Of a stretch of 64,000 bases of DNA, positions 6,454-43,527 are shown piece after piece. The notes under the pieces were generated by a model. That model saw nothing but the letters and a program-made list of their open reading frames with translations, did no database searches and had not been told where the DNA came from. The stretch's first letter is position 1; the number at the start of each line of letters is the position of its first letter. The DNA comes from Peptococcaceae bacterium BICA1-7 (GTDB taxonomy: Bacteria > Bacillota > Desulfotomaculia > Desulfotomaculales > Desulfocucumaceae), in assembly GCA_000802095.1 (NCBI GenBank), contig JUEB01000026.1, forward strand, positions 310,001 through 374,000. The letters are read 5' to 3'. A program made the translations under genes and the position numbers.

Positions 6454-6714
6454 GGTCGGGAGACAGGAGACGGGAGACTGCTAAAAAGTATGAACACTGG
6501 GTCGGGAGACTGCTTAAAAGTATGAACACAAGGTCGGTAGACTTCTTAAAAGCTTGAACATCAGGTCCGGAGACGGGAGACTGGAGTTTTTATGCTATAA
6601 TCTTTGGTATGTTTCAAAATGAAGGCATATAAGGAATGCCTGAACCAATCTCCTGTCTCCCGACAGAAAGGAATACCCGCAAGCAGTCTCCTGACCGCGG
6701 GTAATACCCCTAAG
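6454..6714. repeat. Intergenic repeat element, copy 2 (GGTCGGGAGAC type)
   Basis: From 6454 four units beginning GGTCGGGAGAC or GGTCGGTAGAC and continuing TGCTTAAAAGTATGAAC repeat with an exact 32-base period in the middle. From 6640 to 6700 the units are in the opposite orientation (CTCCTGTCTCCCGAC, CAGTCTCCTGACC). Between the arms lies ATAAGGAATGCCTGAACCA, a motif also found at the ends of other elements (52341, 44173). The element fills the whole pfkA-pyk gap and runs up to the pfkA stop codon. Confidence 0.85.
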
Positions 6715-7677
6715 CTATATCGACAGTACTCCCGCCAGCTGGTACATATCCATATCCAAATGTTTCCTGCCGGTGGTGACTTTTTCAAGGTTCCCGGCAA
6801 CTATTTCCCCCTTCACCATCCCGGCCATACTGCAGTATTCACCGGATATGAGCAGATCCACGGCCTTGGCTCCCAGCCTGCTGGCCAGTATCCTGTCGAA
6901 GGCGGTGGGGGTTCCGCCTCTCTGCAGGTGTCCCAGTATAGTTACCTTGGTGTCAAAGCCCGTTTTTTCCTTTATCAGCCGGCCTACCTCAATACCGCTG
7001 GCAGCTCCCTCGGCCACTATAATAATGCTGTGCAGCTTACCCCTGCGGTAGCCTCTGATGAGCTTGTCGCATATCTCTTCAACCCTTACCGGCTGCTCCG
7101 GTATCATAATTGTCTCAGCGCCGCCGGCCAGACCTGAAGCCAGGGCGATACAGCCTGACTCCCTCCCCATTACCTCAATAATAAAAGTTCTCTCGTGGGA
7201 GGTGGCGGTGTCTCTTATTTTGTTAACCGCATCCACCACATTGTTGACGGCGGTATCATAGCCTATGGAATAGTCAGTGCCGGGCACATCATTATCTATA
7301 GTGCCGGGAATACCCACCACCGGCAGATTATACTCCCGGTAGAATTCCATCCCACCCTTGAAAGAGCCGTCTCCTCCAATAACCACAAGCCCCTGGAGGT
7401 TAAACCTCTTTACATTTTCAAAGGCTATGGCCCTCCCACGTGGATCCCTGAATTCCTCTGACCTGGCTGTCTGTAAGATGGTGCCTCCCCGGTGGATTAT
7501 ATCAGCCACCGATCCCAGGTTCATAGGCCCCATCTCGGCCTCTATGAATCCCTTATAACCGTGTTTTATGCCGATCACTTCCATGCCGTGGTAAATAGCC
7601 TTACGCACCACCGCTCTTATGGCGGCGTTCATTCCGGGAGAATCCCCGCCGCTTGTAAGCACTCCTATCCTCTGCAC
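6715..7677 (-). CDS. pfkA: 6-phosphofructokinase (ATP-type)
   Basis: 320 residues, the usual bacterial PfkA length. Phosphorylates fructose-6-phosphate to the 1,6-bisphosphate. Visible: GVLTSGGDSPGMNAAIR (ATP site), GGDGSFKG with glycine at the position that distinguishes ATP from PPi enzymes, GIPGTIDNDVPGTDYSIGYD (catalytic aspartates), RDTATSHERTFIIEVMGR (substrate binding) and LGHLQRGG. The order dnaE-pfkA-pyk is conserved in many clostridia. The last codons run into a repeat element. Confidence 0.97.
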   Translation of the reverse strand: MQRIGVLTSGGDSPGMNAAIRAVVRKAIYHGMEVIGIKHGYKGFIEAEMGPMNLGSVADIIHRGGTILQTARSEEFRDPRGRAIAFENVKRFNLQGLVVIGGDGSFKGGMEFYREYNLPVVGIPGTIDNDVPGTDYSIGYDTAVNNVVDAVNKIRDTATSHERTFIIEVMGRESGCIALASGLAGGAETIMIPEQPVRVEEICDKLIRGYRRGKLHSIIIVAEGAASGIEVGRLIKEKTGFDTKVTILGHLQRGGTPTAFDRILASRLGAKAVDLLISGEYCSMAGMVKGEIVAGNLEKVTTGRKHLDMDMYQLAGVLSI

Positions 7678-30750: not shown

Positions 30751-30779
30751 ACCATACTGTCTATAATTATCCGGTAGAT

Positions 30780-31891
30780 CTACACAGAAAACCTTTCAGC
30801 CAGCTTATCCAGATCTTTTATCAGACTGTTGAAATTATGGCATGAAGAATTTACCTCTTCCATGGCTGCAGACTGTTCCTCGGTAGCCGCCGCCACATTA
30901 TCCACTGCCAGGGTTACCTCGTCGGCCGCTGACGCAACTGCACCCATCCCACTTGATAGGGTTTCCACGGCTGAAATATTCTTTCAAATCTCTCCTCCAC
31001 ATCCCTGACCGCTTCGAATCCAGCCCTGGCCTGGTCGATTCCCTCATTAACCCCCCGGACCGCCAGGTCTGTTTTTTGCCCTATTATATCAATAAGCCCC
31101 TGTATTTCTCTGGTGGCCCCGGTTGACTGCTCGGCCAGCATACGCACTTCCTGGGCCACCACCGCAAACCTGCGTCCCTGGTCGCCGGCTCTGGCCGCCT
31201 CAATGGCTGCGTTTAGGGCTAAGAGATTTGTCTGGTCGGCAATCTGTGTAATAAGACTGGTAATCTGCGAAATCCTATGGGTGGCTTCGCTCAAATGACT
31301 TATTACCTCACCATTCTGAAGCGAGACTCTCTTTATGACTTCCATCTGCCTGGCAATGTTGCCTATTCCCTCAGCACCCTCACTGGCATATCCCATTGCC
31401 TCTGCAGAGACCCCGGCTATTTGCTTTGTTCTTTCAGCCACCTGCTGCATGGTGGCCGAAACCCCATTTATATTGGCCGCCGTCTCCACCGACCCGGATG
31501 AGGTCTGATCGGCGCACTGTATAACAGTATCACAGGTCTTCTTTATTCTATCGTTCATTTCCCTGAGACTGTAGACCATCCCTCCAATAAGCAAGCCAAA
31601 ACCTTTTCTTAAGTCATCGGCGGTCTTTATTTCATTTGTTCCCTCAATGCCGCTTTTTGATATCAGCCTGTCCAGATCGTCAATGGCTATTTTCATTGAC
31701 GCTATCATCTGCCGGTAGTTTTTGGCGGCAATAGCGCCACCCATCAAAGCACAGAAAAATGCGCCCGCCAGCATCATAGTCAGAAGGCTGTCTATCTTAT
31801 AAAGAAAATAACATAAAACAAAGCCTACCGGTGTCGATATAATTACAGTTCTCAATATGTAGCGGGATAAACTCAGTTTCCTTATATTCAA
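30780..31891 (-). pseudogene. Methyl-accepting chemotaxis protein, frameshifted near the C terminus
   Basis: The first frame (31891 to ~30980) gives two N-terminal membrane segments ([39 protein letters not shown]) and the MCP signalling hairpin [20 protein letters not shown] with [12 protein letters not shown]. After VEERFERI the frame breaks; the next frame continues [20 protein letters not shown] and ends EERFSV-like at 30780. One missing A in GAAAGAATATTTC (30977-30985) restores [13 protein letters not shown]. Repaired length is about 371 residues. There is no periplasmic sensor domain. Loss may be real or a base-call error in a short A run. Confidence 0.85.
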
Positions 31892-32060
31892 AACTCAACC
31901 TCCCCGGTTTTTATCTGGTAAATATAAATTTCACTACTATTAAATATAATAATATACTTAAATTCCAATTCCGTTCAGTAAAAAGAAAAGAGGGTCATAA
32001 GGGCACGGTTTAATAGGGAAACTTGTTGAACCATACCTCAAACCGATACGGAAAAGCAAG
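31892..32060. other. Gap at the left edge of the accessory island
   Basis: A+T-rich stretch upstream of the chemotaxis gene and beyond the end of the drmB gene. It probably contains the left junction of the island. I saw no tRNA, integrase or convincing direct repeat matching the right side near 43430-43527. Confidence 0.4.
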
Positions 32061-32100
32061 AGAGATGCATTGTCCCTCAAGGGATAGTGCATCTCTTTTA
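32061..32100. terminator. Long hairpin after drmB
   Basis: AGAGATGCATTGTCCC / GGGATAGTGCATCTCT with a TCAA loop, 16 paired positions with three wobbles, 30 bases past the drmB stop. The T run is weak on either strand (CTCTTTTA on plus, CTTGCTTTT on minus). Confidence 0.65.
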
Positions 32101-32126
32101 CAATGATCCAGTTATCATTTACTGCT

Positions 32127-33974
32127 TTACAGCAGTTCGTTATAAAAACCGATTCCTTTATCTTCATACATACCAACAATAAGTCCTCTATCGAGGAAGC
32201 CGTTGCGTTCTTCACAACACGTTTCCGGTAATAGCGCACAAGCATGGCAAGCTGCAAGATTGAGTGATTCACGTCCTTGCCCATGACTGAGGATGCACAC
32301 AGGGTCATTTGAGCAAGTTTGAGCGTTCACAACTGCTTTCCTGAAAATGCGTGGGAATGCATCCGGTCTGCCTTGTCTCACAAGCCCGCCCAATGTTCCT
32401 TCAGAGTCACCGCTTGCTGTATAGATGAATATTCCGGTCATCTGTTTTCCATCGGTTTCCTCGGCACAATAAATACGCTCACTCAGCGAGGCTATGCTGT
32501 ATCCGCATTCAAAGCTGAGTTGCTTAATTAGCAGATGGGACAGTGTATGAAGCATAACGAACTTTGGTGTTATGCTTCGAGGATGGTTCTGCCCCATAAA
32601 CGAAACGGCATAATTATCGCTTATTCGTTTCGCTCTCTCCATCACCGACGGATTGTTCAAAATCCACTCATCAATATCACTTTGCTCAAACTCAATAAAA
32701 ATCCCTTCCCCTCGAACTTCATAAGCCGGATACCACCGAGTATCTGTTTCTTTGATGTGGACGAACCCGGCATCGTTTTTGCTCATAACCGGATTTATAC
32801 GAGAAAACCCGATAAGCGCATTTACAACTCTGACTTTATCAATAAGCGAAACAGACTTAATGTAGGGAAGTTTATAGTCATCACGAGGCATACCTTCGCG
32901 AGAGAAATCTCCTATAACTCCAGACGGAGCAGATACCTCGCCGCTGAGTGCCTCATACTCTTCGGCGCGATATTTTACACTTGTAACATCGATCTCAACA
33001 TTACCCTCATCAAGCCATTTGCGGCTGAGGACACGTTCGATGTCAGATTTAGCGGCTCCAATTTCTAATGCGATTTTTTCAACCCACTTCGGCAAACGCT
33101 TCTTTATGGTGTCGATTCTATCATCAGGATCTTCATCCTCAATAACTGTTATACAGTCAGCGAACGCCTTGCTCTTTTCTATTCTTGCATTCAGTTTATC
33201 GGCATACGGCGGGATTACCAGGGAACTGTATACCACCGGAAAATAAACCGATGACGAACCGCGCTGGACTGTCCGCGGATAACAGGTGCACCTTTCCTTT
33301 GTATGTTTGTGAGGGTGACCGCCTTCACATCGGAAGTCACTTGCATCGGTTTCCTTATCAAGTTTTTCAAATCGATCTTTGTCAAAAGCACCTTTTAGAG
33401 TCGTTGAAGCTCCGCAGGAACAGGAAATGCTTAAACCTTCCAAACCTTCTGTGCCGGACGCACCCGTCTTAAATTTCAACGAGGGGTAACCGCAAATCGG
33501 TTTCTTACTTTGCTTGTGTACCCATTTTACCCAAGGAAAATCATTGATATGCCCGTGTTCGCATACGGTAACGATACGAGCGACGACTAAGTCCTGATGG
33601 CAATCCAAGCACTGCATATGTTTCACCATATGCTCATCAGATTCAAGAGTTTTCGCCTTTACCTTTTTCTTATATTCAGAAATCCATAGTGCTATTGGCT
33701 GAAACTTACGACATTTGGGGCAAAAATACCATTCGGGGAATCTGGCGTAGGATATATCCGCAGGTACGGCAAAATAGTCTACTCCGAGAGCTTTCGCAAA
33801 ACGGTCATCGTAGATTTTCACCGTATCGTTCCAATACTCCGGTGCGGCTGTTATAAGTGTCTGATCAGGAAAATCGACCATCGCTCCGACACCGTACTGT
33901 AAAACCGCCTGTGCTGCCCTAACGGAATGTGTCACTCGGTTAAGGTCTACTTTTTCCTTGACTTGTTCAGCCAT
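32127..33974 (-). CDS. drmB: DISARM protein DrmB (DUF1998)
   Basis: 615 residues. N terminus AAQAVLQYGVGAMVDFPDQT matches DrmB's opening. Cysteine pairs FCPKCRKF (~86) and CLDCHQDL, then CEHGHINDFPWVKW and CSCGASTTLKG suggest zinc sites; the C-terminal DUF1998 cluster is CSNDPVC...H...CHACALLPETCC with a following GFLDRG. DrmB partners with the DrmA helicase in sensing and loading phage DNA in DISARM. Start ATG 33974 behind GGGAGGG, four bases after the drmA stop; an upstream ATG at 33998 would overlap drmA. Last gene of the operon: no drmC follows. Base composition is A+T-richer than host genes. Confidence 0.9.
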   Translation of the reverse strand: MAEQVKEKVDLNRVTHSVRAAQAVLQYGVGAMVDFPDQTLITAAPEYWNDTVKIYDDRFAKALGVDYFAVPADISYARFPEWYFCPKCRKFQPIALWISEYKKKVKAKTLESDEHMVKHMQCLDCHQDLVVARIVTVCEHGHINDFPWVKWVHKQSKKPICGYPSLKFKTGASGTEGLEGLSISCSCGASTTLKGAFDKDRFEKLDKETDASDFRCEGGHPHKHTKERCTCYPRTVQRGSSSVYFPVVYSSLVIPPYADKLNARIEKSKAFADCITVIEDEDPDDRIDTIKKRLPKWVEKIALEIGAAKSDIERVLSRKWLDEGNVEIDVTSVKYRAEEYEALSGEVSAPSGVIGDFSREGMPRDDYKLPYIKSVSLIDKVRVVNALIGFSRINPVMSKNDAGFVHIKETDTRWYPAYEVRGEGIFIEFEQSDIDEWILNNPSVMERAKRISDNYAVSFMGQNHPRSITPKFVMLHTLSHLLIKQLSFECGYSIASLSERIYCAEETDGKQMTGIFIYTASGDSEGTLGGLVRQGRPDAFPRIFRKAVVNAQTCSNDPVCILSHGQGRESLNLAACHACALLPETCCEERNGFLDRGLIVGMYEDKGIGFYNELL

Positions 33975-33978
33975 TGAC

Positions 33979-36900
33979 TCATCCCTCCCAAACAACAATT
34001 TTACCTTTGACCTGCGTGTCTACGTTTCTCATAGAAGTCAAGGTTTCTATTGCGAAATCCTGCCCGGCGGAGTTGTATTGCTTAAGCAACCGTTTTGCTC
34101 CGGCGGTGGGCGGACTGACCATATACCTGCGTCCGAAATGGAACGGCACTTTGGGATCCCCGGATTCGTTACATTCGTCCGCGATTTTCTGCCACTCGTC
34201 GAAGAATGCTTCAATCTCGAACTTAACATCCTCAATATCGTCTTTCATTCCGTTAGCGGCACGTACATTAATGCTTCGGATTCGCTCGATGATGAAAGCT
34301 TCAATATCGGCAATAATATCAGCGAAATATTCCTTGTCAAAGTTTGCAGCGTCCTTATCTTCACTCAATCCCGCTCGTTGCCTTAGAATGGCGGTAAGAA
34401 CGGCATGTAGAGCTCTTTCGCGTGCAGGCTTTGAAAACGGAGTTGCCCCGGTCGGCTCGACAAATCGATAGAACGATTCATGGTAAGCTCTGAAGCGTTC
34501 GTAATGAGAGCGGTCACGGCTTTTCGTTGCATCATATTGTACAAAGGCCACGCCGGGAAATGAGCGACCGATGCGGCTTGAGGCCTGAATATACTCGCTT
34601 GTCAGTTTCGGTTGTCCGACCATCAGCATAACATTTAGCCGGGCAACATCAATGCCGACGGATATCATATTCGTTGCCAAAAGGACGTTGGACGCATATC
34701 GTTTTGCGGAAATGTTCTCATGGGAGTATTCCAGTTTTTCCAATTTGTCCAATGTTTCGTTAAGTTCAGTGGTTGTGACACGGCTCGTGAGCTCATCGGC
34801 TCCGACAATAAGTCGGCGCGATGTGAACATCCTATTTGCCGTTCGTATAATGAAGTCTTTGACGTCATCATCGACAAGTGTAGATGCTTTGCCGAGATCT
34901 TTCAGGCTGTTAAAATACACCGTCAATGTCCATAGTTTGTCTTTTATCACATCAGGTAAAACCATCATATATGTTCTTTGCAACAACGCCGCCATAGCTC
35001 GGATTTCAGTCATTGCCTTTGTTTTTCCGGATGGCATTATTCCTACATATCTGCGACCGAATACTCCGTTCTCATATGAAACTTCAGCTTCACACGCAAA
35101 GAAAGAATCTTCGGAATTCAATCCTGGCGCAGGGAATTGTACGACTTCACGGTTGTAAAGCACCGAACACTGTTCTTTGGCTCGGCGTATTGTTGCAGTC
35201 GAAGCGATTATCTTAGGTTTTGTTCCTTTTTGCCCGCAAATGGCATCAACGGCTGTTTCATACAATCCGACGATTGTTCCGAGAGCTCCGGAAATCAGAT
35301 GAAGCTCGTCTTGGATTATCAATTCAGGGGTGCGATTGTCGCTTCCTACTGCAAAGAACGAGCCAATCCGACCGTCCCAAGGCAGCATAGCAAATTTATC
35401 GACTGTTCCGAAAAGTAACGTCGGCGGATTACGATAAAGTTCTTCATCAATAATTTGAATAGGTAACTGCGTGGTGAAATCGCAATCTTCTTGCGGACAG
35501 AACATATAAAAGTGCTTGTCCCGCATATTGTATCCCCACTTGCCGACAAGTTTCTTATCTCTGTCGTCTTTAACGAGTTTCGTTCCGCACCAAGGGCATT
35601 TTAATACTTGAAATTTATTGTGCCGGTCTTTTTCGTTTCTTACGTAATAGTGCTCCTTTACGTTTAGGAGCTTATTCAAGTGATATTTGGCATCATCGTT
35701 CCTGTTCGGAATATGCGTATCACCTATCCACAAGCCGATGGTTATCGCTTCTTTACCCAACGGGTATGACGGATAAATATGCCGTTTTGCCTCGCAATCT
35801 TTGCGGATAAACTCACAGGCACAAATTAACGTGGCCGCACGGGTGAATTGTTGCGCCGCAAGCAAACGGAGGGTATAACGCATAATCACAGCGGTACCGC
35901 CGGCTTCAGCCGAATGGGTCAGCCGACGATAAAAAATCGTAAAAGCGGTTAAGCCGAGATAAGCCTCGGTCTTGCCGCCGCCGGTCGGAAACCATATCAG
36001 GTCAACAATGTCGCGTTCCGGCGATTCGTCATCAACAATTGAGTTGATATCCATCAACAAAAAGGCTATTTGAAACGGTCGCCATCGGCAATCGCCGTCA
36101 TCGGCTTTTCTATAATCCATATTGCGTAACAATTCCGCTATTTGTTCGTCTTCCGGATAACGATCAATATTAGCGGTACCGGACTGCATCCCGAGGTGTA
36201 CCCTCTGCATAAACATCGATCTGTTGGCAAGTAAAAAAGCTGAGTATGCATTGTCATTTCTTTTTAATGTTTCGATGCCGGCATACATTCGGTCATAGGC
36301 TCGTTTGCACTCCGCAATGTTCTTGGATGCTGCCGATTGATATCGCGCATCAAGCACTTTCGCGGTTTTTTCCAGTCCGTCAACCCAAGCTTTGTAGAGG
36401 TTAACAAGGCTTTTTAACAATGATATCTTTTGGCCTTTTTCCGTGCCGTCTAAATCAGATAGGTATTTCATTGACAACTTTTCCGCCGAAACCATATCAT
36501 TTTCAGGCAAGTCGAAACTCATAGGCGGAACTTCGGCTTCCGGAAAGAAATCACTCCAAATTTTCCCGATGCCATCGTTATTGATATCCCAATCAACGGA
36601 AACGCCAAGCCCTGTGCCGTATATTTTCTTATCCCGATATAACAGCTCAAGTGAGCGTTCCTCATCGTCCATTGTTTCCGGGTCAGAGTTAGGATTGCTT
36701 TCGACAAATACAAATCCGTTATTTGCAGACGAAATCTCAATAATCGGTTGAAAAATACAATGGTGTGCTTTGGCGGGAACTTCTTCAATGTCATTGACGA
36801 GCATAACGGTCAGCGACCAAAGTTCATCAGAGATTTTCGTCCGAAGCGCAGTAACTTTAGCTGTTGTATCGTCAATTTCTCTGTTGCCGTCAATGTAATC

Positions 36901-37650
36901 CCCCTGCGAAAAGTCGAGCTTGAACTCCGCCGTGTGCGGTACTCGGACAAAGCCGTTCCTACAAAAGTCGGCAAAGCGGTATAGAATTTTTTTGACTACA
37001 AAAAACTCGTTCTCAGGAATGGTATCCCTTTCAAGGATTTCCCTGATTTCCTTTGCATTTGTTGAAGAAAGAAGTCGGATTGCCATCAGTTCTTTGTCAT
37101 AGACTATTTTATGTGATAATTCCGACGGCACAGAATAACTTTCAGGGTCATCGGGTACAAACGGAATTATGCAGTCGGGAATCTTTGCATTTCTGTACGT
37201 TGAGAAAGATACGGTACCACGTACTGTATCGGCATTTCCTCTGATAATAAATGTAATGCCCATAGAAGACGGCATATATTGTGCGGACAGACCAATCTCC
37301 TCATCCAAGTTCTCATCAGCTGTTTCGTCGAATTCATAGTTGCGCGTATCTGATGTAGGCGTTTCGATTACCACCTCATCTGCCGGCACATCTTCTACGC
37401 TTTCGATATCGGATTCTTCACCGCTTTCACTGATTATCGGCACAGTTTCATCGCTGTCCTGATTGACATGATTGCCTTGCGGGTAGAGTATACCGACCGA
37501 ATAACGGCTGGTAGGGCTACTTGAAATAAGTTCATGCTCGATATCAGGCACGGCAAATTCCGAACCCGGTCCGAGAAGTTCAGACTTAATCAGCTTAATA
37601 TATTCTTCACGAGCGACAATCATTTGCTCTCGAATATCGTTATTTTTCAT
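33979..37650 (-). CDS. drmA: DISARM helicase DrmA
   Basis: 1223 residues, SF2 helicase. The N-terminal ~540 residues start with a typical IKSELLGPGSE...SRYSVGILYPQG segment followed by an acidic stretch (SESGEESDIESVEDVPADE). Helicase motifs: IWFPTGGGKTEAYLGL (Walker A, ~555), IIQDELHLISGALG (Walker B, DELH, ~782), IIASTATIRRA (motif III), NMISVGIDVARLNVML (V) and YIQASSRIGRS (VI, ~1027). CPWCGTKL and a later C-x-C pair may bind zinc. It should translocate on incoming DNA with DrmB. Start overlaps the drmE stop (ATGA). Confidence 0.92.
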   Translation of the reverse strand: MKNNDIREQMIVAREEYIKLIKSELLGPGSEFAVPDIEHELISSSPTSRYSVGILYPQGNHVNQDSDETVPIISESGEESDIESVEDVPADEVVIETPTSDTRNYEFDETADENLDEEIGLSAQYMPSSMGITFIIRGNADTVRGTVSFSTYRNAKIPDCIIPFVPDDPESYSVPSELSHKIVYDKELMAIRLLSSTNAKEIREILERDTIPENEFFVVKKILYRFADFCRNGFVRVPHTAEFKLDFSQGDYIDGNREIDDTTAKVTALRTKISDELWSLTVMLVNDIEEVPAKAHHCIFQPIIEISSANNGFVFVESNPNSDPETMDDEERSLELLYRDKKIYGTGLGVSVDWDINNDGIGKIWSDFFPEAEVPPMSFDLPENDMVSAEKLSMKYLSDLDGTEKGQKISLLKSLVNLYKAWVDGLEKTAKVLDARYQSAASKNIAECKRAYDRMYAGIETLKRNDNAYSAFLLANRSMFMQRVHLGMQSGTANIDRYPEDEQIAELLRNMDYRKADDGDCRWRPFQIAFLLMDINSIVDDESPERDIVDLIWFPTGGGKTEAYLGLTAFTIFYRRLTHSAEAGGTAVIMRYTLRLLAAQQFTRAATLICACEFIRKDCEAKRHIYPSYPLGKEAITIGLWIGDTHIPNRNDDAKYHLNKLLNVKEHYYVRNEKDRHNKFQVLKCPWCGTKLVKDDRDKKLVGKWGYNMRDKHFYMFCPQEDCDFTTQLPIQIIDEELYRNPPTLLFGTVDKFAMLPWDGRIGSFFAVGSDNRTPELIIQDELHLISGALGTIVGLYETAVDAICGQKGTKPKIIASTATIRRAKEQCSVLYNREVVQFPAPGLNSEDSFFACEAEVSYENGVFGRRYVGIMPSGKTKAMTEIRAMAALLQRTYMMVLPDVIKDKLWTLTVYFNSLKDLGKASTLVDDDVKDFIIRTANRMFTSRRLIVGADELTSRVTTTELNETLDKLEKLEYSHENISAKRYASNVLLATNMISVGIDVARLNVMLMVGQPKLTSEYIQASSRIGRSFPGVAFVQYDATKSRDRSHYERFRAYHESFYRFVEPTGATPFSKPARERALHAVLTAILRQRAGLSEDKDAANFDKEYFADIIADIEAFIIERIRSINVRAANGMKDDIEDVKFEIEAFFDEWQKIADECNESGDPKVPFHFGRRYMVSPPTAGAKRLLKQYNSAGQDFAIETLTSMRNVDTQVKGKIVVWEG

Positions 37651-40277
37651 TCAATTACCTCCCAATATGTTATGGGTTTATTTATTAAGTTTATAGGAAC
37701 AGTCACGGTTTCTTCAAGAAGTGAGATTCCGTCCAACTCCAACGTTTCCGATAAACTTTCCACGTTGTCGTACACAACTTCCAGCACACCGCCTTTGGGC
37801 GGTTTATGACCGCTGAGTTTATCCGTAATTGCTTTGCCGATGAGCTCCAATATCTCTTTGCGTTGGTGCCTAACGATACGACACGCTTCAAAATAACTGT
37901 GTGTATCACAGAGAAGATAAGAATCCTGAGTAAGTACAGCTATTTGCTGTAGTGTAATTTCATCTCTCGGACCCACAATATGACTCTCTTCAATGAGCCA
38001 CTGCCTCACAGAAACCTCTTGAAGAGAACTTCCGAGTTTTTGAAGTTCTCTTGAAATGTCTCTATATGAAAACCCGTGATTATGCTTATATTCTCTTAAA
38101 GCCTCTTTCCAATAAACTGATTTTTCAGTGGCATCCAAAACCTCTGCACTTAAGCGTCCTGCGGTCTGCAGACTCTCGTATATATAATCCACCATATTTC
38201 GAGTGTAGTCATCGCGTTTAGTGAATACAAGCTGATCCCCGGCCGAAAGGTCATCTACATCGGTTTCGATTACCGTGCCCTTTATGGAATCGAAAACAAC
38301 TGCGTTGTAGTATTTTGAGAACAATATTTGCTCCCCGCTCACAAATCGTCCTATGGCATATACTTCGGATGTCAGGGTATTTCCAGCGGAACCTGAAACC
38401 CTGGCCACATATTTTCCGATATCGAACGAACTTATTTTACCGATATATTGCTCCAAATCCACTACTTCCTCGGTAAACGCATCCATGTCTTCATCCCCGG
38501 CAATTCCGTCTCTCGAATCTACATCATCAAGCGTATCATCATCAATAACGCCAAGTCTGGAGTTCAGCCTATTCTCAAAGATTACTGCTTTACGCTTTTT
38601 GTGCTTGAACCAGTGCATTTCGCATTCGTAGAGCAAAACAGTAATATCCGCCGCAGCTCGGCATTTCAGTGGGTCGAACCGTTTGCCACTGAAATCCCCG
38701 ACAACTATAACCTCGTCATAACGGTCGGAGTTGTCAAAACGATTTGCGGTGACTATAGTGACATCTTTCCTGTTAAGTGTTTCGTCCGTACCGAGAATAT
38801 CAATGTAGTATGCTTTCGGTACGATAACAGCGATTTTTTGCCCGACAGAAGAATCCAGATGTCGATTAAGTGCATCATGCTTCGGACATCCGACAAAACC
38901 GGATTGATACAGGCATTCTAAGACATCAATGATATATGCACATTGATATTTCACAGACTCTGAATTGTCCGCCAAGTTCCAAAGCTCACGAATCCTCAGT
39001 GCCGGAGAGGATATCCCCGTAATCAGTTTTCCGCCTTTCACGGCTTTTTCCAATACTTCAATCGGAAATACCGCTGTTGTAAACAGATTAAGAAGCGAAT
39101 GTGAGGTAATTAAAAAACTGTTTTTGGCGGCATCGTTCCATTCGGATTTTTTTATTATGTATAGTGCTTCTCTGGCTTTGCGTAAATCTTCCCACGAGCA
39201 ACCGCCGTCAACAAATATGGTTGTAACAGAGTTATTAACGATATTTTCAATTTGTCGGTCAAGTTCAACGGTCAAAGCGTTTGTTTCCTGCGGTGGCAAG
39301 GAATTTTGCAGCAGGAATTCCTTAGTACAGGCAAACACTGAAGCATCTTCTTGCGATTCAATAATACCTTCCGCACATTCGGAATCGATTCCGGCTGCAA
39401 TATGGGCAAACTTAATAGACTTTCTTCCAAGCAAGTCTATTAACTCAGAACCGCCTTTTGCCGCGGCATCGGCGCCGGTAATAATTAATCCAACAGTCTT
39501 GTTCCCACGCTTATCAAGCACCAAATCGCGAGCAGTCGAAACCTTGCCCGTTATTTTTAATACCGGCTCGGTTTTAGCGGGATTGCTACCGTACAGATAT
39601 TCTTCACCGCTGTCGGAAAAGTACGATGCCGTGACTATATCAAGCAGTCCTATGTTTTTACCGTTCCCGTAAACAATACGTATCCCTTTGGATAAGCGGT
39701 CAAACGTACCTCGTTCGGCGACGATAACAGTCGAAACACCCGTGATACTCGGAACTTCAGATGCGGCAACTCCCAATATGTGAGAAATAAAGTCGGCTCT
39801 ATTGGTATCCTTTCGTTTGATTCCCCTACCATCAGTCACATCAGAAGCGCCGAAGTAAGGTCTGATAAGGCTTTTATTAGTGTCGAACAGAACCCATATA
39901 GTGGTTTTCCCGTTTTTGCCGCGCCCATCCTGCTCTAATACCAAGTATTGCTTTCCGTCTCTAAATTCCGAACCGCACCAACGATAACGTTCGTTCCTGT
40001 ATAGAACCATATTACCTACATTCAGTGAAGCAATGATTGATTCGGCATCAGTCTCATCTAACGATACACACGCTAATGCCGCTGTAATAAAGGAAACGAT
40101 GTCAAAGCACACCGAACCGGTATGTAACGCCACGCTGACGGAGTGACCATCATTGGAAATCGAGGACGTAAAAAAGTCAGCATACTTCTTTATAATCCGC
40201 TCTTTGGATATGAGCGAATTTTCAAAGTAGATGTCGCACCTGTCAGTCAGACGGAACAGTACCTGTTCGTTCGTCAC
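37647..40277 (-). CDS. drmE: DrmE-like protein of class-2 DISARM
   Basis: 876 residues, called DrmE from its size and place between a C5-methyltransferase and drmA; sequence motifs alone would not name it. Visible: alternating hydrophobic strands and acidic ends of an ATPase-like core (TVGLIITGADAAAKGG, TTIFVDGGCSWEDLRKA, SFLITSHSLLNLF, KLITGISSPALRI, DEVIVVGDFSGKRFDPLK), suggesting a degenerate SF1-like helicase fold without a clear Walker A. An acidic segment DDDTLDDVDSRDGIAGDEDM sits near residue 590. The C-terminal ~170 residues (SYRDISRELQKLGSSLQEVSVRQ) look helical and possibly DNA binding. Overlaps both neighbours by 4 bases, so expression is tightly coupled. Confidence 0.7.
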   Translation of the reverse strand: MTNEQVLFRLTDRCDIYFENSLISKERIIKKYADFFTSSISNDGHSVSVALHTGSVCFDIVSFITAALACVSLDETDAESIIASLNVGNMVLYRNERYRWCGSEFRDGKQYLVLEQDGRGKNGKTTIWVLFDTNKSLIRPYFGASDVTDGRGIKRKDTNRADFISHILGVAASEVPSITGVSTVIVAERGTFDRLSKGIRIVYGNGKNIGLLDIVTASYFSDSGEEYLYGSNPAKTEPVLKITGKVSTARDLVLDKRGNKTVGLIITGADAAAKGGSELIDLLGRKSIKFAHIAAGIDSECAEGIIESQEDASVFACTKEFLLQNSLPPQETNALTVELDRQIENIVNNSVTTIFVDGGCSWEDLRKAREALYIIKKSEWNDAAKNSFLITSHSLLNLFTTAVFPIEVLEKAVKGGKLITGISSPALRIRELWNLADNSESVKYQCAYIIDVLECLYQSGFVGCPKHDALNRHLDSSVGQKIAVIVPKAYYIDILGTDETLNRKDVTIVTANRFDNSDRYDEVIVVGDFSGKRFDPLKCRAAADITVLLYECEMHWFKHKKRKAVIFENRLNSRLGVIDDDTLDDVDSRDGIAGDEDMDAFTEEVVDLEQYIGKISSFDIGKYVARVSGSAGNTLTSEVYAIGRFVSGEQILFSKYYNAVVFDSIKGTVIETDVDDLSAGDQLVFTKRDDYTRNMVDYIYESLQTAGRLSAEVLDATEKSVYWKEALREYKHNHGFSYRDISRELQKLGSSLQEVSVRQWLIEESHIVGPRDEITLQQIAVLTQDSYLLCDTHSYFEACRIVRHQRKEILELIGKAITDKLSGHKPPKGGVLEVVYDNVESLSETLELDGISLLEETVTVPINLINKPITYWEVIE

Positions 40278-41839
40278 GGCATAATTACCTCCGCAGTTTT
40301 ATCCGGTTCGCAGAGCGTTTCAAGGCAGGAACGCATAAAGCGAGCCATCTCTTCTATGGCGGGTATAGTCACCGAGTTGCCGAATTGCTTATATTTTTGG
40401 ACATCGGGTACCCCGTCCGGGAATGAAAACCCTTCGACTCCTTCTTCATCTAAAAAAGCATAATTGATAAAACCTTGAAGTTTCCCCCATTCGGTCGGTG
40501 TCATTACTCTTATGCCTTTATCGTTAAGCGGTGTCTTTTTGCCTCTAATTTCAATTCCTGCAATATCGTCACGCGGGTCGTATATCAAATTGCGCTCTCT
40601 GCCGGAGCCGCCTGTTGCCAGTAAGGTGTTGGCCACGGGCGAATCTATGCCTTCTTCGTTTACAATTCTGTATCCGAAACCATACCCTTTTCCTTCTTGC
40701 CTTTCTCGGTGTTTTATCAATGTTTCGAGGTATCCCGAAGCCATGTAATATCTCGGCTCAACATCATGTTCAAGTACATCATTGAGGTTGTTGTAAAGCG
40801 AGCGTTCACGTCCCTTCGGCAATTCCGAAGGTAGTGCCAGCAATCTCTCCATTCTGAATCGTTCCCTGTCAAAACCGATTATATATGTTCTGGGACGGTT
40901 CTGAGGTACACCGAAGTTTCTGGAATTCCTCACGAAATCTTTCGGATTATATGTAAGTGTGCCGGTTCCCGTGGCAGAAACGCCGATAACTTTGTATTTC
41001 AACTCGATTTCCAGAGTTTCGATTATTTTTCTGAATGTCTTTCCGTTGTCACGTGTAACTAAGTGGTCAACATTTTCCAAGAAGAATGCGCTCGGTCGGG
41101 TGCGTTTGATAATCTCGGCAATATGGAAAAAGATTTTTCCCTTCTCTTCATTTTCAAATCCTTCTCCGAGACCGACACTACTGAACGTCTGGCAAGGAAA
41201 CCCGGCAAATAAAATATCATATACGGTATTATCAACGACTTGTTTGAACGCTTCCGACATTAAGTCATTATGCGGATTCTCTCCGAACAGATGCTCATAG
41301 GTCATGCAAGCGTATTTGTCAATTTCGGCAGATAACACGTTTGTAAAACCGCCGATACGCTCAAACCCACGACGGATACCGCCTATACCGGCACAAAGGT
41401 CTATTGTTCTAAACGGCATTTGCGGGTATATTCGCAACAGATTCTCTACTTCATCGGCGCATTCGGCGATGTCATTCTCGATTCGCTTTCCCCAAAAACG
41501 CAGAACCGTCCATCCATCGGATTGCAGTTTATCGGTGACTTCCTTATCCCGCACGATGTTCTTTTCAATTTTAGGAATCCAGAAATCGTGATTGCTTTTG
41601 ATTTCGCTTTTTGCATGTTCCCAATCGTATCCATGCCAGAATTCACTGTCACAGAATACAGCGACTTTCCGCGCCGCGAAAACGAAGTCGGGTTTTCCGA
41701 AAACGGATTTGTCGTTCCTCGTATAGGTTGTTAAACCGCGACGGTCAAATTCAGCACAGAGTGCGTTCTCAAGAGACGAGTCTCTGTTGCGCACGCGGCT
41801 CATATTGTAGCTGATTTGCTCTTTTGTTTTTCGAGCCAC
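40274..41839 (-). CDS. Fused Vsr-type endonuclease / C5-cytosine methyltransferase (DrmMII-like)
   Basis: 521 residues in one open frame. Residues ~1-135 are Vsr-like: ISYNMSRVRNRDSSLENAL, GKPDFVFAARKVAVFCDSEF with D51, FWHGYDW, DFWIPKIEKNIVRDKEV and GWTVLRFWG. The T-H of E. coli Vsr is C-D here and the zinc ligands are missing, as in many Firmicutes relatives. Residues ~143-521 are a complete C5-methyltransferase: DLCAGIGGIRRGFE (I), FAGFPCQTFSSVG with catalytic C216 (IV), FFLENVDHL (VI), QNRPRTYIIGF (VIII) and QFGNSVTIPAIEEMA (X). In class-2 DISARM this enzyme marks host DNA. GTG start behind GTGAGG. Confidence 0.9.
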   Translation of the reverse strand: MARKTKEQISYNMSRVRNRDSSLENALCAEFDRRGLTTYTRNDKSVFGKPDFVFAARKVAVFCDSEFWHGYDWEHAKSEIKSNHDFWIPKIEKNIVRDKEVTDKLQSDGWTVLRFWGKRIENDIAECADEVENLLRIYPQMPFRTIDLCAGIGGIRRGFERIGGFTNVLSAEIDKYACMTYEHLFGENPHNDLMSEAFKQVVDNTVYDILFAGFPCQTFSSVGLGEGFENEEKGKIFFHIAEIIKRTRPSAFFLENVDHLVTRDNGKTFRKIIETLEIELKYKVIGVSATGTGTLTYNPKDFVRNSRNFGVPQNRPRTYIIGFDRERFRMERLLALPSELPKGRERSLYNNLNDVLEHDVEPRYYMASGYLETLIKHRERQEGKGYGFGYRIVNEEGIDSPVANTLLATGGSGRERNLIYDPRDDIAGIEIRGKKTPLNDKGIRVMTPTEWGKLQGFINYAFLDEEGVEGFSFPDGVPDVQKYKQFGNSVTIPAIEEMARFMRSCLETLCEPDKTAEVIMP

Positions 41840-41850
41840 AGCGCATTACC

Positions 41851-42012
41851 TCACTTTCTATAAATCTGCGGACTTACCTGTTCCCCAGCGGAGAGCGGGT
41901 TGTCATTCTGCTTGTTCGCTATCCAACGACCGTTTTTTGCCGTACCGATGCGCTCCACTAAGCCCGCTTTTTCATTTATCAGGAATAATTTCCATAATGT
42001 CGCCGATGTCAC
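41851..42012 (-). CDS. Possible 53-residue protein or gene remnant between regulator and methyltransferase
   Basis: Reading from GTG 42012 in another frame than the regulator gives 53 codons ending 11 bases before the methyltransferase start; the downstream part reads INEKAGLVERIGTAKNGRWI and looks like the wing of a winged-helix domain. The first ~14 codons overlap the 3' end of the XRE gene. No clear ribosome site. It may be a truncated tail left by a rearrangement or a small regulator; unproven. Confidence 0.3.
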   Translation of the reverse strand: MTSATLWKLFLINEKAGLVERIGTAKNGRWIANKQNDNPLSAGEQVSPQIYRK

Positions 42013-42178
42013 AGTTCAACGCAGAGCAAATTTTCATGAGCACTGTCGTTGTAACAGGTTCATCATGCCCAAGCTTTGTTATTAAGCTGGCACTGATATT
42101 TGCGGCAGCTTGTAAATCCTTTTTCTTCATTTTTTTATCTATTAGTAGCTTCCACAATTTGTTGTAGCTTACAGCCAC
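41972..42178 (-). CDS. XRE-family helix-turn-helix regulator of the DISARM operon
   Basis: 68 residues. NKLWKLLIDKKMKKKDLQAA, then ISASLITKLGHDEPVTTTVL and MKICSALNCDIGDIMEI is a complete Cro/C1-type HTH of the short YozG-like kind. GTG start behind GAGGTGAA. First gene of the minus-strand operon and divergent from the conjugative-element genes, it probably represses its own promoter and the defence genes (inference). Confidence 0.9.
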   Translation of the reverse strand: MAVSYNKLWKLLIDKKMKKKDLQAAANISASLITKLGHDEPVTTTVLMKICSALNCDIGDIMEIIPDK

Positions 42179-42207
42179 GGTTATTCACCTCAACATAAGT
42201 TTGTTTG

Positions 42208-42216
42208 ATTATATCA
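42208..42216 (-). promoter_or_regulatory. Extended -10 promoter element of the DISARM operon
   Basis: TGATATAAT on the minus strand, an extended -10 with no clear -35, about 30 bases upstream of the XRE gene start. It would also drive the defence genes unless there is an internal promoter. Confidence 0.6.
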
Positions 42217-42340
42217 CACATATCGCTCAAATGAACGCATTTTCACATAATTAAACTAAAATTGCTGTTTTTGTATAATAAAAAGATAGCTATCTCCGTA
42301 TGATTGTGGTATCGTGTGTTGCTGAGAGGAGGCGGTACGC

Positions 42341-42655
42341 ATGAACAATATTCTCATAGCATTATAGGACCACTTCTACCGTCAGCCGGAAAACACGCCA
42401 CAGGAAGAAAGAATCAAAGCAAACCACCAGTTATTGCGTCAGCGTCTTAGCAGCCGAAATCGCAAGCTGGTGCTGCGGATCATTGATGACAAAGACCTGA
42501 TCTGCTCGGATGTTTCGTTAGACAGCTTCATTTACGGCTTCCGGCTGGCGTGGCAGATTGCATATCAAATACAAACTTACGACGGGTGTTCGGATTGCAG
42601 CCAAAGAGCTGAGCCAAATACCCGTCAGTTATTTTACAAGGAGGAATTGAAATGA
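42341..42655 (+). pseudogene. DUF6809-like small protein with amber stop at codon 9
   Basis: From ATG 42341 behind a strong GAGAGGAGG, the frame reads MNNILIAL, then TAG, then DHFYRQPENTPQEERIKANH and KLVLRIIDDKDLICSDVSLD, SFIYGFRLAWQIAYQI, continuing open to 42655. This resembles the DUF6809 proteins of Firmicutes conjugative elements, where a tyrosine (LYDHFY) is expected at codon 9. A single substitution would explain it. A downstream TTG at 42434 could give a truncated product. The stop overlaps the next ATG. Confidence 0.75.
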
Positions 42656-43341
42656 AGAAGCAAATTATCGCTGGAATAGCCATTATCGCCTGTGTCGCGT
42701 TGTGTGCCGCTGTGTGGCCTCGGAGCGCTGAGGTCGAGGATTTACCCGTCGAGCCGATAAAAACCGCCGTAACCTCCGAAATTGAGGCAAACCCAAAAGA
42801 AGCACCGCCAATTATTCTCTCTGCTGATGATTCAGAGGTTGTCGCAGAAAGCGAATCACCGAAAACTGAGGCAATAGCGGCAGAAGAAAAAACCGAACCG
42901 ATGCCACCCACTGAGCCTGTATCAGAAACAGCGTCAATACCATCGGCAACTCCCAAAACGTCAGCACAACCTTCATCCAATTCCAAGTCAGGCGACAGAG
43001 CCATCATCGACGGTAAACCGCATATGTGGATACCCGGATTCGGGTGGATTGAAGATGAAGGCGGCGGGAGTATCGGCATAGTCGTTGACGGCAAAGGCGA
43101 TATCAATAAGCAGGTCGGCGTCATGGGTGGAGGCAGCACGACAGTCGGAAATCCCGGCGACGAGCTTACCGGGCATAAGGTTGGCATAATGGGCGGGGAC
43201 AGCGGCGGTACTGTCGCCGAGGATATGTATGAGAACGGACATAAAATAGGGATTATGGGTGGCAGCAAATCGCCAGCGAAAGAAACAACTCCTCCGGAAT
43301 CAGTACAACTGGAGCCAGTCGATGGCGAAATTCTCATATAG
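42652..43341 (+). CDS. DUF6550-like secreted/anchored protein of conjugative-element type
   Basis: 229 residues. An N-terminal hydrophobic helix (IIAGIAIIACVALCAAVW) is followed by ~100 residues rich in E, P, S, T and A, then MWIPGFGWIEDEGGGS, the hallmark of DUF6550 proteins. The C terminus has three copies of a K-V-G-I-M-G-G-type motif (QVGVMGG, KVGIMGG, KIGIMGG) about 25 residues apart. Function unknown; these proteins travel with Firmicutes integrative conjugative elements. Strong ribosome site AAGGAGGAATTG. Confidence 0.75.
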   Translation: MKKQIIAGIAIIACVALCAAVWPRSAEVEDLPVEPIKTAVTSEIEANPKEAPPIILSADDSEVVAESESPKTEAIAAEEKTEPMPPTEPVSETASIPSATPKTSAQPSSNSKSGDRAIIDGKPHMWIPGFGWIEDEGGGSIGIVVDGKGDINKQVGVMGGGSTTVGNPGDELTGHKVGIMGGDSGGTVAEDMYENGHKIGIMGGSKSPAKETTPPESVQLEPVDGEILI

Positions 43342-43417
43342 TGATATCGGCGTCGTCGGAGCATTTGCAGAAGAAGCCGAGAAAATAGCCGAACAACGGC
43401 AGAGGCAGACAGCTTAA
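43322..43417 (+). CDS. 31-residue ORF overlapping the DUF6550-like gene
   Basis: ATG 43322 lies inside the end of the previous gene and encodes MAKFSYSDIGVVGAFAEEAE and a short charged tail EKIAEQRQRQTA. Composition is protein-like and translation could be coupled. It may be the intact start of a larger mobile-element gene that was cut at the island edge. Confidence 0.45.
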   Translation: MAKFSYSDIGVVGAFAEEAEKIAEQRQRQTA

Positions 43418-43432
43418 TCTGCTGTCTGCCTC
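43402..43432. terminator. 12-bp perfect hairpin at the right island edge
   Basis: GAGGCAGACAGC / GCTGTCTGCCTC with a 7-base loop. It begins within the last codons of the 31-residue ORF. No T run follows on either strand, so terminator function is only likely; it could be a recombination or protein-binding site. Confidence 0.5.
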
Positions 43433-43527
43433 ACCCAATATCCACGGTTCATAAAATGTCCCTATGGAAATGCGCCTAATGAACCCCCTCTTCGCTCTGC
43501 CTGATACTACAAAGTTGCTTTTAGTAT

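Follow-up and report, generated by a model that had tools for sequence, protein, structure and literature searches.

In the DISARM defence systems, the DrmAB complex has been described as relying on a trigger loop and as having a preference for DNA with a 5'-overhang, and DrmC as being dispensable and often missing (PMC9142583). With regard to classification, PADLOC requires DrmC for DISARM class 2 (PMC9252829). Like the locus described here, ARMADA types I and II are YprA-family helicase systems with a Vsr-type nuclease, in which Vsr domains act as nucleases of helicases related to those of DISARM (PMC12458937). In ARMADA, however, it is the helicase that carries Vsr, and the methylase resembles PglX, whereas in this locus Vsr and a C5 methylase form one fusion protein. 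Among the Vsr proteins themselves, V.NgoAXIII cuts at T:G whatever the sequence context (PMC6116569), and in Caulobacter the loss of a methylase leads to a DNA damage response that is caused by a Vsr-like protein (PMC12907096).

Composition and family of the operon

The operon lies on the minus strand of a stretch of 64,000 nucleotides from Peptococcaceae bacterium BICA1-7 (contig JUEB01000026.1, positions 310,001 to 374,000), hereafter the window, to which coordinates without a locus name refer. The initial annotation, made from the sequence, had described five minus-strand open reading frames, and all five are present with the content it gave them: a small XRE regulator of 68 aa, encoded by the first gene (41972-42178; VanU-like, with Pfam HTH_26 at E 1.2e-22 in a profile search), a Vsr~C5-cytosine methyltransferase fusion of 521 aa with a GTG start (40274-41839), a DrmE-family protein of 876 aa (37647-40277), the SF2 helicase DrmA of 1223 aa (33979-37650) and the DUF1998/MZB protein DrmB (32127-33998), which has 623 aa if read from a TTG, or 615 aa if it starts at the ATG at 33974. 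Each of the four large proteins matches its family at an E-value below 1e-65, far beyond chance. Their genes are as compact and coupled as had been annotated, with 4-base overlaps between the methyltransferase and DrmE genes and between the DrmE and DrmA genes, and a DrmA/DrmB junction that is a 20-base overlap if DrmB begins at the TTG and a 4-base gap if it begins at the ATG. The coupling does not extend to the regulator, since 132 bases separate the XRE stop (41972) from the GTG of the fusion (41839), which has a good ribosome-binding site just 5' of the start codon.

The identity of DrmA and DrmB was checked by profile matches, which are decisive for both. DrmA matches chain A of the solved DISARM complex (7s9v_A) at E 5.7e-146 and the PADLOC DrmA model at E 8e-211, and scores 926.6 bits on the DISARM_DrmAS equivalog NF038325, narrowly below its cut-off of 950. 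DrmB, a separate gene that adjoins drmA, matches 7s9v_B at E 7.5e-71 and scores 440 bits on NF038324 (cut-off 240). A better match to a different helicase-DUF1998 system would have spoken against DISARM; Dpd and Druantia were considered and rejected, as DpdJ and DruE reach 25 and 9 bits, respectively, against 700 bits for DrmA. The core of DISARM also includes a DNA methyltransferase in the operon, and the C5 methylase (PF00145, E 6e-62) is such an enzyme. Taken as sequence evidence, these matches support the assignment of the locus to the DISARM family, as had been proposed.

DrmA retains its helicase motifs, namely a Walker A motif (PTGGGKT, residues 555-561), DELH (781-784), STAT (817) and QASSRIGR (1022). 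Its most acidic stretch comprises residues 59-118, with 22 acidic residues and one basic residue in 60-120, and a profile alignment places this stretch opposite the trigger loop of the homologous Serratia DrmA (PDB 7s9v), a correspondence limited to position and charge. A comparable acidic stretch is found at about the same position in eight of the nine relatives examined. Serratia DrmA, with 1325 aa, is longer than the DrmA of the window, whose operon differs by its genes for a C5 methylase and for a DrmE-family protein.

With regard to expression, the extended -10 element annotated at 42208 can indeed be read by inspection of the sequence (TGA-TATAAT, 42216-42208, minus strand), but its -35 is poor and it is not among the sites reported by a simple promoter scan, which are no commoner than in shuffled sequences. 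XRE homologues are located 5' of the operon in three relatives (L016, L034 and L047), and the promoter-like hexamers seen by eye 5' of these homologues lend some support to the putative promoter. An operator palindrome common to the XRE upstream regions was not found, AGATAGCTATCT being present only in the window.

Class assignment and the missing DrmC

The 876-aa protein belongs over its full length to the DrmE_fam family, with 780 bits on NF038316 (cut-off 80) and residues 16-869 aligned to positions 1-838 of the 838 in the model. On the class-2 DrmE equivalog, NF038323, it scores 21.8 bits (cut-off 250), and none of the PADLOC models gave a match of any kind for it. The methylase matches PADLOC DrmMII at E 8e-50, and type II methyltransferase models score higher. 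Furthermore, no drmC or PLD gene is found in the operon, and no standalone PLD gene that could serve as DrmC in the organism's own genome, where the sole PLDc_2 match falls within a 1065-aa frame on another contig. When the relatives were scanned for the HKD motif, it was detected only in L009, the positive control, and in none of the 39 DrmE_fam locus entries, some of which are short; these entries pool all sources, a few being one place fetched twice. L009 is a genuine class-2 locus from the same taxonomic order, whose DrmE scores 334 bits on NF038323 and whose genes are ordered as methylase, DrmE, DrmA, DrmB and a PLD protein, the latter having DrmC as its best match, below the cut-off of that model.

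The initial annotation had called the locus class-2 DISARM, a label of which the family stands and the class, in its strict sense, does not: judged by sequence models, a class-2 DrmE on NF038323, a DrmC and a DrmA above the NF038325 cut-off are all lacking. Like class 2, the locus does combine a C5 methylase with DrmA, DrmB and a member of the DrmE superfamily, its gene order being identical to that of L009, and an archaeal provirus with DrmE, DrmA, DrmB and a methyltransferase, for which DrmC is not listed, has been labelled class 2 (PMC11705971). These likenesses would fit a canonical class-2 system that merely lost drmC. We nevertheless regard such a loss as unlikely, given a DrmE for which the class-2 model (cut-off 250) yields 22 bits and that of the sister family 780, and given that the absence of HKD-motif PLD genes from all 39 entries, short loci included, makes the lack of DrmC look like an ancestral trait of the sampled lineage and not like a recent loss. 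A gene encoding a NERD domain and an SF1 helicase, which is present in many DrmE_fam loci and unseen in L009, points the same way. The best reading of these comparisons appears to be a DrmC-less DISARM variant with a methylase-repair fusion, which belongs to a lineage defined by NF038316-type DrmE.

The features by which the locus had been considered a variant were recognised only in part. Methylase-first order has to be rejected as such a feature because L009 shows it too, and the small XRE regulator, although present here and not in class 2, is common to some of the relatives. The features that do set the locus or its lineage apart are the fusion of Vsr to the methylase, the missing DrmC and, in relatives, the NERD-SF1 helicase. 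The gene for the latter encodes 560-600 aa and either separates DrmE from DrmA or follows DrmB; the window clade is devoid of it, and no account of it as a part of DISARM was found in the literature searched. Genes for a NERD nuclease with an SF1 helicase (for instance at L023 16045-17748, L042 8263-9996 and L007 6664-8400) are thus seen in DrmE_fam loci and also beside some DrmA genes without DrmE.

DrmE as a predicted pseudo-helicase

The DrmE protein of the window has no significant match in the PDB by sequence, and a tblastn search of plasmids and phages gave no match. AlphaFold models were obtained for the full-length protein (pLDDT 84, pTM 0.69) and for residues 1-585 (pLDDT 88, pTM 0.83), and they predict an SF2 helicase core with two RecA-like domains in residues 1-580, in addition to the C-terminal DrmE_C region. 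In VIA, all 50 matches listed for the 1-585 model are SF2 helicase cores, with FANCM and then RIG-I in the lead; the top match, to FANCM, has a Z of 12.9 over 387 residues with an rmsd of 5.5, and FANCM, RIG-I and Hef match the predicted model with Z values of 12-13 over 280-390 residues. Foldseek TM-scores for the DrmE models are only between 0.2 and 0.4. Walker A and DExH/D motifs are absent at the structural positions in all 27 DrmE sequences, the window protein reading HTGSVCF at the P-loop position, and a single aspartate at the place of Walker B is kept in only some relatives. A helicase-like fold without Walker motifs leads to the prediction that DrmE is ATPase-dead, and the models suggest that it is probably a pseudo-helicase with a FANCM/RIG-I-like core.

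An unusual form of the protein was observed in L084 (3098-8275), where DrmE constitutes the C-terminal half of a 1725-aa protein that contains a Walker A-like sequence, GADGTGKST, in its N-terminal part. Vsr is found nearby in this locus, and no C5 methylase was detected there.

The Vsr-methyltransferase fusion

The fusion consists of a Vsr-type PD-(D/E)XK nuclease at about residues 3-118 and a methyltransferase at about residues 141-508, and scores 116 bits on TIGR00632 (vsr; cut-off 98) and 231 bits on TIGR00675 (dcm; cut-off 101). The second half is a Dcm-like C5 methylase with 3me5 and 3lx6 as its best PDB matches and with Cys216 in an FPCQ motif; judging by the target-recognition match, its site might, as a guess, be Dcm-like (CCWGG/CCNGG). 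In the numbering of the fusion itself, the key residues of the Vsr half are M13, E24, D51, D64, F67, W68, H69 and D98; for comparison with other Vsr proteins, positions are given below in the numbering of E. coli Vsr. The numbered residues match those in PMC12907096. All of the catalytic (E25, D51, H69, D97) and wedge (M14, F67, W68) residues are present in the window. M14, F67 and W68 form the mismatch wedge in the E. coli Vsr structure. Across 34 DISARM-linked Vsr domains, M14, E25, D51, H69 and D97 are invariably kept, F67 is found in 33 (one has Y instead) and either W or F occupies position 68. The window protein thus resembles E. coli Dcm-Vsr and V.NgoAXIII-type Vsr in its active site, its wedge and its pairing with a Dcm-like methylase. 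Unlike the E. coli pair, however, it is a single polypeptide encoded in a DISARM operon, the zinc ligands are lost in the Vsr of its clade and H64 is replaced by D, a change that is also found in V.NgoAXIII and VsrA (PMC12907096).

The best reading of this arrangement would be a methylase that carries its own repair nuclease against 5-methylcytosine deamination. A C5 methylase lies within about 9.5 kb in 32 of the 33 Vsr-bearing loci compared to 21 of the 46 loci without Vsr (Fisher 5e-7, kinship ignored), a co-occurrence that speaks for a role in repairing the deamination products of the methylase itself; on the tree, the association is not significant, with too few independent pairs. Such repair does not seem to be essential for the system, because Vsr goes undetected in about a third of the DrmE_fam loci (11 of 36, some cut by contig ends), in which DrmE and DrmA persist.

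Alternatively, the Vsr half could be an effector nuclease in place of DrmC, with a methylase half that targets un- or hemi-modified sites and a Vsr nick in phage DNA that provides a single-stranded entry point for DrmAB. The lack of drmC in the window lineage and the intact Vsr active site are compatible with this role, for which the Caulobacter Vsr-like protein and the Vsr nucleases of ARMADA offer precedents. Notwithstanding, it appears quite unlikely. The conserved wedge residues (M, F, W/F) fit T:G recognition, the loci just mentioned keep DrmE and DrmA where Vsr is not detected, and a related pair of methyltransferase and Vsr occurs in a sampled genome (G253) that has no DrmE_fam among the matches listed. 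Moreover, in L018 (Oscillibacter valericigenes Sjm18-20; 6655-7332) the methylase is a 66-aa remnant, whereas Vsr, DrmE, DrmA and DrmB are open, and a Vsr without an intact methylase should be harmful if it cut unmethylated DNA. A distinctly doubtful elaboration would make the fusion a restriction-modification module in a single chain that stands in for DrmC, where the methylase would read the site, Vsr would nick improperly modified phage DNA to feed DrmAB, and DrmE would be an ATPase-dead, FANCM/RIG-I-like sensor of DNA structure. 

Small HNH proteins are encoded beside several DrmE_fam operons (L018 5957-6658, L047 819-1580, L008 700-1578 and L030 6490-7272) and represent another candidate nuclease in DrmC's place.

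Relatives and genomic context

Relatives were collected with a DrmA scan, which yielded 80 loci, after a DrmE alignment (A2) had been rejected as the query for insufficient conservation. The Vsr~MTase fusion is present in the window and in five clostridial relatives (L016, L017, L019, L034 and L036), which group in the DrmA tree with L018, where Vsr is a separate gene, and with L027, which is cut by a contig end; L034 was omitted from this tree on account of its broken DrmA. In five sister loci (L023, L025, L028, L035 and L047), Vsr and a methylase of the window type are adjacent genes. Methylase identity is 53-74% within the window clade and its nearest sisters and at most about 33% elsewhere, and the methylase, as far as these comparisons indicate, is exchanged freely among DrmE_fam loci. 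A full-length match to the window fusion was found in no other genome among the 398 sampled of the phylum. A fusion of reverse order is seen in L008/L029 (L008 10019-11464, after DrmB), with a methylase unrelated to that of the window and a C-terminal Vsr, in contrast to the N-terminal Vsr of the window clade. The existence of both orders with unrelated methylases suggests that Vsr and methylase were probably fused at least twice. In L023 (13692-16043) and several relatives, DrmB was also observed to be longer by about 150 aa at its C-terminus.

Decay does occur among these loci, as illustrated by the broken DrmE and DrmA frames of L034 and the methylase remnant of L018, and the window operon might likewise be a decaying or silent remnant devoid of function; with its frames all open and closely spaced and its catalytic motifs all kept, this is very improbable.

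The operon is part of a 12.8-kb segment (30753-43526), together with an MCP gene, XRE and a DUF6550 protein gene, which is absent from a congener whose corresponding locus (L114; genome G002, contig C114) aligns to window positions 49963-43527 and 30752-26362, only 49 bp separating the two flanks there. The segment has a GC content of 45.3%, compared to 49.6% for the remaining window. No convincing direct repeats were found at the segment ends, nor was a clear target duplication. A cobalamin riboswitch (RF00174, 30530-30720, minus strand, 119 bits), the only hit of an Rfam scan, is located upstream of cbi transport genes and directly adjoins the left edge of the segment. From these alignments, the segment was probably inserted here rather than lost from the congener, and the operon was probably acquired horizontally.

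Proposed mechanism and implications

What the sequence itself shows is a DrmA with an intact helicase, accompanied by DrmB, a member of the DrmE family and a C5 methyltransferase that bears an intact-looking Vsr at its N-terminus; any mechanism beyond the DISARM core we infer from these parts. Considered jointly, we find it fairly likely that the locus is an anti-phage DISARM operon without DrmC, probably acquired horizontally, in which a methylase with its own repair nuclease is combined with DrmAB translocation and a dead-helicase DrmE. The methyltransferase half would mark host DNA, and the Vsr half would nick the T:G mismatches left by deamination of the 5-methylcytosine that the methylase itself produces. 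DrmAB, which the acidic loop of DrmA would keep in check, would load on single-stranded or 5'-overhang phage DNA, translocate and block phage replication. DrmE would be a helicase-like subunit without ATPase activity that may be a scaffold or a DNA sensor. Since drmC is absent, DNA destruction, if any, would be left to host nucleases. The XRE protein probably represses a predicted single operon transcript.

The literature searched contains no account of the function of DrmE, for which the dead-helicase prediction is a first testable idea, nor of the cost of C5 methylation in DISARM. A DISARM lineage without detected DrmC is relevant to the question of how phage DNA is destroyed in this defence. 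Furthermore, the fusion would couple self-marking to the repair of the damage caused by the mark, which is a cost of defence by means of a C5 methylase.
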